Source: Altererythrobacter xiamenensis
GTDB taxonomy: Bacteria; Pseudomonadota; Alphaproteobacteria; Sphingomonadales; Sphingomonadaceae
Assembly (NCBI RefSeq): GCF_900177715.1
Contig: NZ_FXWG01000001.1
Coordinates: 248,001 to 312,000, forward strand
DNA: 64,000 nt
Direction of reading: 5' to 3'
Both the position numbers and the translations under genes were made by a program. Numbering within the stretch: the stretch's first letter is position 1; each line of letters starts with the position of its first letter. The notes below the pieces were generated by a model. The model had not been told where the DNA came from. It did not search any database and worked only from the letters and a program-made list of their open reading frames with translations. Below are positions 435 through 1,699 of the stretch, piece after piece.

Positions 435-1022
435 CTACTCGATGCGGTAGTCGATCGGCTTGAAACTGCCGCCGTTCGAGGCATAGGCCGAGCAGGCTGT
501 CAGCCCGATAACGCAGTCCATCCTGGCCTTCAGAGCGATATGGTCTCCCGGTGCGCTTCGCGGAGTTTCGACCGACAGCCTCCCTGTCTCCCCATCGACC
601 GGCACATTCATGAAAAGGTTGAAGGCGCAGGGGATATCGTCCTCGCCGATCCCATAGGGCCCGAGCGCCTCGGCAAGATTACCGAAGCAGCCACGATGCA
701 CCGGCTTGTCCGGGTAGAAATGGCGAAAGGTCGCCTTGCTACACGGCGTGAGAAGAAAATCGTGCAGCCCGGCTGTATCCTCGACGATCTCGAGCATGGG
801 GTTAGAGCGGTTCGACCAGAGCGTGTTGCCTTTCGTCAGCCTCAAGGTCTCCTCGTAGTCGAAGGTCCGACCGTTGCTGATGACTTCTCGCACGTCGTCT
901 TTCGCATAGGCAAGCAGGTCGGATACCTGTTGGCCTTCGGGATCGTAGACGCGCAGCACCTGCCCTTCGTTCAATTCGAAAGCCGTGCCGCTGCGGGGCT
1001 CGATACGGGTCATTTCGGTCAT
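435..1022 (-). CDS. DUF1989 (urea carboxylase-associated type) family protein
   Basis: A DUF1989 protein of about 195 residues. Family-like features are the TPCSK segment, an [12 protein letters not shown] segment resembling the family's usual HxxCxxNL stretch, the FNLFMNV strand and a C-terminal [13 protein letters not shown] stretch. Members are often found beside urea carboxylase or arginine and purine breakdown genes, and their biochemistry is poorly settled. The start is placed at 1022 because that ATG overlaps the TGA of the upstream YqcI/YcgG gene as ATGA, which implies translational coupling. A longer reading to 1052 would run 30 bases into that gene. No urea carboxylase or NRPS gene is nearby, so the substrate is unknown. 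The link to N-oxidised guanidine chemistry is inferred only from the partner gene. Confidence 0.8.
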
Positions 1023-1699
1023 GCGCGCGGATCCTTGAACGGAGCTTTCCAATCCTCGTCGACCGCGCGCCCGCTGTACTGCCGCGCTTCGCTCTCCTCG
1101 CCATGCCGCGCGAGCATCGGATTGATGTCTCCTGCGAGCTGACGATCACGTTCGAGGATTGTCTCGCGCATGCGTTCATAGCGTCCTTCCGCGCGCAGCC
1201 ATTCGAACTGGGCGTGGAGATTAAAGACGAGGATAGGCCGCGAGAACCGTCTCGCCGGGCGGGAAGCATTGGGGTGAAGGCCGACGACGAAAAATGCTTC
1301 CCCACCGAAACTGAGCGAGAAGTCAGGCTTCGTCGCGTCCGCGCCTACGTCAGCGTCGAGCTTCTGCCCGCGCCAGGCATCCTTGTCTGCCAGCGACTGC
1401 AGCCTTTCCCACATCGCCTGTTCGAACTCGGTCTCGCTCAAATCGCGAGGCGCTTCGAAGATCACCACCAGGCTGCGAAAGTCCTGGTCCGCGTAATCGC
1501 CGTCAGCCCATTCCAGAAGAGCATCATGGATTTCGAGGTCGTTCCATGCGCTGGTCAGATCGCGCGCATGCACGAAGCGGATGCGCTCATTTGCCAGCGC
1601 GGACTTCGCGCCCACGCACGGGAACTGGCTATCCCTGATCCGGTCGATGAAACTCGTCTCGGCGGCTTGCCGTGGATCGACTGCAACTGTTTCGTTCAT
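1019..1699 (-). CDS. YqcI/YcgG family protein, candidate heme-dependent N-hydroxylase (GntA/DcsA-like)
   Basis: Recognised as YqcI/YcgG by FPCVGAKSAL near the N-terminus, the VGLHPNASRPARRF and FNLHAQFE segments, and ARQYSGR near the C-terminus. Characterised relatives are the heme-dependent arginine N-hydroxylase DcsA (D-cycloserine pathway) and the guanitoxin N-hydroxylase GntA; both oxidise a guanidine nitrogen. Several histidines are conserved-looking, but the heme ligand cannot be assigned here. The ATG at 1699 is preferred over an in-frame TTG at 1717. Its TGA overlaps the ATG of the DUF1989 gene, forming a two-gene unit with no other biosynthetic gene nearby. The substrate and product are unknown. 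Confidence 0.78.
   Translation of the reverse strand: MNETVAVDPRQAAETSFIDRIRDSQFPCVGAKSALANERIRFVHARDLTSAWNDLEIHDALLEWADGDYADQDFRSLVVIFEAPRDLSETEFEQAMWERLQSLADKDAWRGQKLDADVGADATKPDFSLSFGGEAFFVVGLHPNASRPARRFSRPILVFNLHAQFEWLRAEGRYERMRETILERDRQLAGDINPMLARHGEESEARQYSGRAVDEDWKAPFKDPRA

Follow-up and report, generated by a model that had tools for sequence, protein, structure and literature searches.

Graminine gene clusters encode an arginine hydroxylase of the YqcI/YcgG family (GrbE, ChmN in most of the sources) together with an SznF-related protein (GrbD, ChmM), as described in PMC9679993, PMC6771848, PMC11085572, PMC11705231 and PMC10849742, which disagree on which Chm label equals which Grb label. 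AglA and ChmN, of the argolaphos and chalkophomycin systems, are YqcI/YcgG heme-thiolate guanidine N-hydroxylases, and GntA is the guanitoxin N-hydroxylase (model NF041366). Among DUF1989 proteins, CgdAB takes part in guanidine breakdown by acting on carboxyguanidine (PMC11271267), and Tdm, whose zinc ligands are Cys residues, acts on an amine N-oxide (PMC12560246). In this study, we analyzed a stretch of 64,000 nucleotides (the window) from Altererythrobacter xiamenensis (assembly GCF_900177715.1, contig NZ_FXWG01000001.1, positions 248,001 to 312,000), in which a YqcI/YcgG gene overlaps a DUF1989 gene. The unit combines two known families and is conserved in several phyla. Its first protein is probably a heme-thiolate guanidine N-hydroxylase acting on an arginine-like molecule, and its second is probably a Zn(Cys)3 enzyme that processes the hydroxylase product, both as predicted from sequence and structural models. 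A preliminary description, made from the sequence alone, had suggested a minimal N-oxidation system, which our results support as far as sequence goes; its further suggestions of a link to graminine and of N-N bond formation were not supported.

Conservation of the gene pair

Both family identities given in the preliminary description were confirmed: the YqcI/YcgG protein scored 193 bits against the Pfam profile PF08892 (cut-off 27) and 254 bits against NF041366 of NCBIfam (cut-off 145), and the partner scored 197 bits against PF09347 (cut-off 27), its only Pfam match. We then followed the pair in several partly overlapping surveys (locus L062 belongs to genome G119, and L092 to G057). First, among 198 genomes of 37 genera, comprising the window's genome and its relatives, the presence of the YqcI/YcgG protein was patchy (26 genomes, own included, in 4 genera). 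An intact DUF1989 gene adjoined all 27 full-length copies found at its 28 places, and the 28th place, a YqcI fragment, had DUF1989 following it all the same. Second, among named GTDB contigs there were at least 582 relatives, and the best 80 were used; 77 of these had an intact DUF1989 gene beside YqcI. This sample is biased to near kin, and its top relative was a protein of Erythrobacter litoralis (73% identity). Third, in a phylum sample of 299 genomes, DUF1989 was present in 71 and YqcI in 16, all of which were among the 71, and DUF1989 was directly downstream at 16 of the 17 YqcI places, or at 15 of 16 when the window is excluded. Thus, the pairing is far above chance, and the adjacency survey that the preliminary description had proposed revealed a dedicated, co-conserved partner. 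The Bacillus subtilis control in this sample, scored for presence only, matched both families.

Finally, we examined all 23 plasmid (22) and phage (1) records with a YqcI match. A DUF1989 frame above 200 bits was directly downstream in 15 of them, including records from Chryseobacterium, Hymenobacter, Deinococcus, Comamonas and Skermanella; the eight records without DUF1989 came from Rahnella, Streptomyces (two), haloarchaea (three) and Pseudoalteromonas (two). YqcI matches above 150 bits were paired in 15 of 18 cases, and the divergent ones in none of five. Pairwise distances of the two proteins were correlated across 93 loci (r = 0.81, without a third-gene control for shared ancestry), a value reached by none of 1000 permutations (highest, 0.26). 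No paper naming YqcI/YcgG and DUF1989 together appeared in the literature search listings.

Predicted active sites

The predicted model of the YqcI/YcgG protein, built without heme and with its pocket not viewed in coordinates, matched the sandwich fold of AglA. The preliminary description had proposed a search for a heme-binding residue, and Cys28 proved to align with the heme ligand Cys44 of AglA, a Cys being present in all 129 paired and all 12 other homologues. In these residue counts, a homologue is called paired if its locus contains, at any position, a DUF1989 match scoring over 200 bits; identical sequences were dropped and near copies kept. The pocket Phe residues of AglA were also kept in the alignment, from which AglA numbers were mapped by hand, and Lys196 and Lys225 of AglA were replaced by Arg and Glu. 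The preliminary description had named two contrary outcomes, the lack of a heme pocket in the predicted structure and a majority of unrelated neighbors; neither was found, as the AglA fold and the heme Cys are present, with the limits that the model has no heme and that, outside the pair itself, the flanking genes are unrelated.

The model of the DUF1989 protein (mean predicted local distance difference test score, 87.6) matched the DUF1989 structures 3oru, 3siy and 3di4 at template modeling scores of 0.86-0.88. In a FastTree phylogeny of 91 sequences with a midpoint root, the 18 paired members formed one clade (support 1.0), separate from 28 UAAP2-like, 29 UAAP1-like, 3 trimethylamine N-oxide (TMAO) demethylase and 13 other sequences, the UAAP labels being a score split by script that was checked with NCBIfam for one pair (L158). 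A profile of paired members gave 222-349 bits on the 15 paired plasmid and phage copies vs at most 112 on unpaired DUF1989. Cys94, Cys112 and Cys177 aligned with the zinc ligands of Tdm, and all 18 paired, all 28 UAAP2-like and all 3 Tdm sequences retained the three Cys, whereas UAAP1-like ones had mostly lost them. His109 followed Tdm in 16 of 18 paired and 3 of 3 Tdm sequences, vs 0 of 28 UAAP2-like ones. The protein resembles Zn(Cys)3 proteins, such as a carboxyguanidine deiminase subunit and TMAO demethylase. It scored below the cut-offs of TIGR03424 (110 vs 284.7 bits) and TIGR03425 (83.7 vs 205.95 bits), which from a paper's title we take to be the CgdAB subunits. With 195 residues and no GcvT domain, it also stayed far below the cut-off of the TMAO demethylase model NF053776 (83.9 vs 1100 bits).

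Upstream motif, surroundings and mobility

Analysis of k-mer enrichment revealed GGAAC upstream of 49 of 120 copies, vs 12 for the reverse complement; among other genes, 60 of 543 had it. The extended form GGAAC-N15-18-GTT, the motif of the EcfG general stress regulon, preceded 29 of 120 copies (1-3 in ten shuffles, 4 on the reverse strand), and the strict form GGAAC-N16/17-CGTT preceded 11 of 120 (0-1 shuffled, 1 on the reverse strand), 37-71 bases before a start estimated via a conserved motif. Among the 80 named loci, the extended form was found in 23, whereas of 550 other genes from these stretches 17 had it (Fisher 2e-12, which is too optimistic since related genomes are not independent). 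Its frequency varied by genus: 7/7 in Methylobacterium, 3/3 in Tianweitania, 1/9 in Novosphingobium and 0/6 in both Qipengyuania and Aurantiacibacter. These promoter patterns suggest that in many Alphaproteobacteria the general stress sigma factor EcfG probably activates the pair. The main texts of three papers on EcfG contained neither YcgG nor YqcI, and DUF1989 was absent from two of these texts.

The layout of the pair, including the ATGA coupling noted in the preliminary description, is given in Table 1. The four-nucleotide overlap was present in 24 of 27 full-length copies, with starts chosen by script.

Table 1. Positions of the gene pair within the window.
Feature	Positions	Strand	Description
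YqcI/YcgG (GntA-type) gene	1019..1699	-	ATG...TGA, 226 aa; predicted heme-thiolate guanidine N-hydroxylase, predicted heme ligand Cys28
DUF1989 gene	435..1022	-	ATG...TAG, 195 aa; predicted zinc enzyme acting on the product; Cys94, Cys112, Cys177
ATGA overlap of the two reading frames	1019..1022	-	

Downstream of the pair is a gene with its start at 379, presumably miaB as judged from its sequence. Upstream, 31 codons of a miaB start survive as a relic at 1769-1864, followed by apparently unrelated genes; over 65 bases, the relic is 85% identical to the intact start (334-398). This relic, on the far side of the pair, suggests that the pair arrived by recombination at the miaB start. The pair also adjoins miaB in 4 of 96 surveyed loci, where no such relic was found. 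The assembly (3.08 Mb in 5 contigs) has a single DUF1989 (PF09347) gene, and no nitric oxide synthase (NOS) was found in it. The earlier statement that no nonribosomal peptide synthetase (NRPS) gene accompanies the pair holds for the whole assembly, which had no match to the condensation domain PF00668.

The neighbors beyond the pair are unrelated genes. Clustering of neighbors gave no constant third gene, either in the window and 27 related stretches or across the 80 named loci, where the commonest flanking cluster occurred within two genes of the pair in only 8 of the 80. The gene caller itself detected the two genes of the pair in just 61 and 59 of these 80 loci and in 18-25 of the 28 stretches, so that this search would also miss some copies of any third partner. 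Some copies were on plasmids typed as conjugative, including a Novosphingobium plasmid (L220:2210-3140) with its oxidase (YqcI) frame in two pieces. This split frame, together with an Erythrobacter locus (L114) whose DUF1989 is decayed downstream of 5672 beside an intact oxidase frame, shows that the pair is being lost in places. An accessory function moving between genomes forms part of our best explanation, and we hold it with moderate confidence.

One record that carries the pair, an unverified scaffold labelled 'Bacteriophage sp.' and obtained from human faeces (L215, MT836826.1), may be bacterial DNA. On two haloarchaeal plasmids (L210:4872-6277 and L217:2866-4325), a divergent YqcI/YcgG gene has a four-base overlap with a gene for a cysteine hydrolase, and a gene for a 5'-deoxyadenosine deaminase lies close by; this is perhaps another oxidase-hydrolase pair. 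A conjugative Rahnella plasmid (L206:4938-10223) has a GntA-type gene without DUF1989, followed by genes for a short-chain dehydrogenase/reductase-type oxidoreductase, a 2Fe-2S protein, a LysE-type exporter and a MOSC protein.

A proposed two-enzyme relay and its alternatives

Our best explanation, which we consider about evenly balanced between right and wrong, is a self-contained relay of the hydroxylase and then the DUF1989 zinc enzyme, with EcfG control in many Alphaproteobacteria. In the first step, the YqcI/YcgG protein would bind heme via Cys28, as homology, fold and residues suggest, and would use O2 and electrons from housekeeping redox partners to N-hydroxylate free L-arginine, or a closely related free guanidino amino acid, at its guanidine group. 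In the second step, the dedicated Zn(Cys)3 enzyme would take the N-hydroxyguanidine and cut a C-N bond at the guanidine carbon; a deiminase-like hydrolysis would yield a hydroxyurea-type or citrulline-type amino acid and ammonia or hydroxylamine. We infer a hydrolytic step because N-hydroxyguanidine lies chemically between the carboxyguanidine and amine N-oxide substrates of DUF1989 enzymes. The relay is based on the conservation of the pair, the heme-site and zinc-site residues, the fold matches, the absence of a constant third partner in the clustering and the enrichment of the promoter motif.

Several observations weigh against it. The putative pocket differs from that of AglA since Arg179 is replaced by His162 (His in 128 of 129 paired homologues) and Arg200 by Leu182 (Leu in 107 of 129), and the Arg and Glu at the AglA Lys196 and Lys225 positions are also frequent in unpaired homologues (7/12 and 10/12). 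Asp346, the iron ligand proposed for Tdm, is not kept in paired DUF1989 (position 180, variable). DUF1989 was not found beside YqcI in L097 and L133, two of the 80 named loci, nor at one of the 17 places in the phylum sample. The EcfG motif was absent from the 601 bases upstream of the start of the window copy, a region that is in part the miaB relic, and it was absent before 57 of the 80 named copies. Heme binding, zinc binding, both reactions, the substrate and the regulation are predictions.

The alternative that survives best, possible although clearly less probable, is a catabolic or detoxifying pair, in which N-hydroxylation would labilize an unwanted guanidino compound from outside and DUF1989 would complete the degradation, either to gain nitrogen or to protect the cell. 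The patchy distribution among relatives is consistent with it, as are the role of DUF1989 proteins in guanidine breakdown and the MgdH/MgdL precedent, in which an oxygenase is joined by a dedicated enzyme breaking the oxidized guanidine (methylguanidine). However, no transporter, carboxylase or other catabolic gene recurred beside the pair, no guanidine riboswitch was found in 28 loci, and the EcfG-type promoters suggest stress control over substrate induction. A bolder version of the relay, which we regard as rather improbable, is a NOS-independent and partly stress-induced route to reactive nitrogen, leading from free arginine via N-hydroxyarginine, made by the heme-thiolate enzyme and split by the DUF1989 zinc enzyme, to citrulline or ornithine and to hydroxylamine, hydroxyurea or an NO/HNO donor, for protection or signaling. 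If true, it would be a widespread two-gene counterpart of NOS chemistry in bacteria without NOS.

It is very unlikely that the product of the pair is a diazeniumdiolate amino acid with an N-N bond, as in graminine pathways, although YqcI/YcgG proteins do function there (PMC9679993, PMC11705231 and PMC10849742 among the sources). The preliminary description had tentatively placed both families in that pathway; yet the partner there is of the SznF-related GrbD/ChmM type, and DUF1989 was absent from the main texts of PMC9679993, PMC6771848, PMC11085572 and PMC11705231, PMC10849742 lying outside that search. The partner here has DUF1989 as its sole Pfam match and a fold matching DUF1989 structures, which also argues against the N-N bond, and no NRPS to use graminine was found, the genome having no condensation domain match. 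A true GntA in a guanitoxin-type pathway, as the NCBI name has it, is slightly less likely still: the 'equivalog' score is well above the cut-off, but NF041366 also gives its name to proteins that lie beside DUF1989 in varied surroundings (14 of the 22 plasmid records with a YqcI match carry it), and no further gene recurs beside the pair, with no search aimed at other guanitoxin genes. This name probably over-reaches for these proteins. Chance neighbors without a joint function, a reading that the unrelated flanking genes would fit, can practically be dismissed, as adjacency across phyla, correlated divergence (without third-gene control) and the four-base overlap already contradict it.

In the sampled alphaproteobacterial genomes, nearly all of these automatically named 'guanitoxin' proteins belong to a conserved pair of genes whose other member encodes a predicted zinc enzyme; the surroundings of the pair vary, and a stress-type promoter often precedes it. 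A vague annotation thereby becomes a small testable set: two proteins, free arginine as the likely substrate, and proposals for the partner reaction and the regulator. Should the relay be confirmed, it would provide a new reaction for DUF1989 and make guanidine N-oxidation part of ordinary bacterial stress physiology, beyond antibiotics, toxins and siderophores.

The pair was compared with the closest known systems. The YqcI/YcgG protein resembles AglA and ChmN in fold, heme Cys position and pocket Phe residues (AglA compared), whereas its identity to AglA is about 19%, three positions noted above (Arg and Glu at Lys196/Lys225, His at Arg179) differ, and its partner is DUF1989 in a genome without an NRPS condensation domain. 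Like GntA it scores above the model cut-off, but its gene pairs with DUF1989 in a two-gene unit whose contexts are scattered. The partner shares the DUF1989 fold family and the three zinc-type Cys (as in the UAAP2 group) with CgdAB, which has two DUF1989 subunits, whereas the window's genome has one, in a separate clade and below the TIGR03424 cut-off. With Tdm it shares the DUF1989 domain with zinc Cys and His109, but neither the GcvT domain nor Asp346. In the D-cycloserine pathway (DcsA/DcsB), the second enzyme is reportedly a hydroxyarginase, whereas no arginase-family gene was found in the window's assembly; MgdH is a 2-oxoglutarate dioxygenase, unlike the heme-thiolate candidate here. In both MgdH/MgdL and DcsA/DcsB, as in the relay proposed here, an oxygenase acts on a guanidine and a dedicated enzyme then splits the product.
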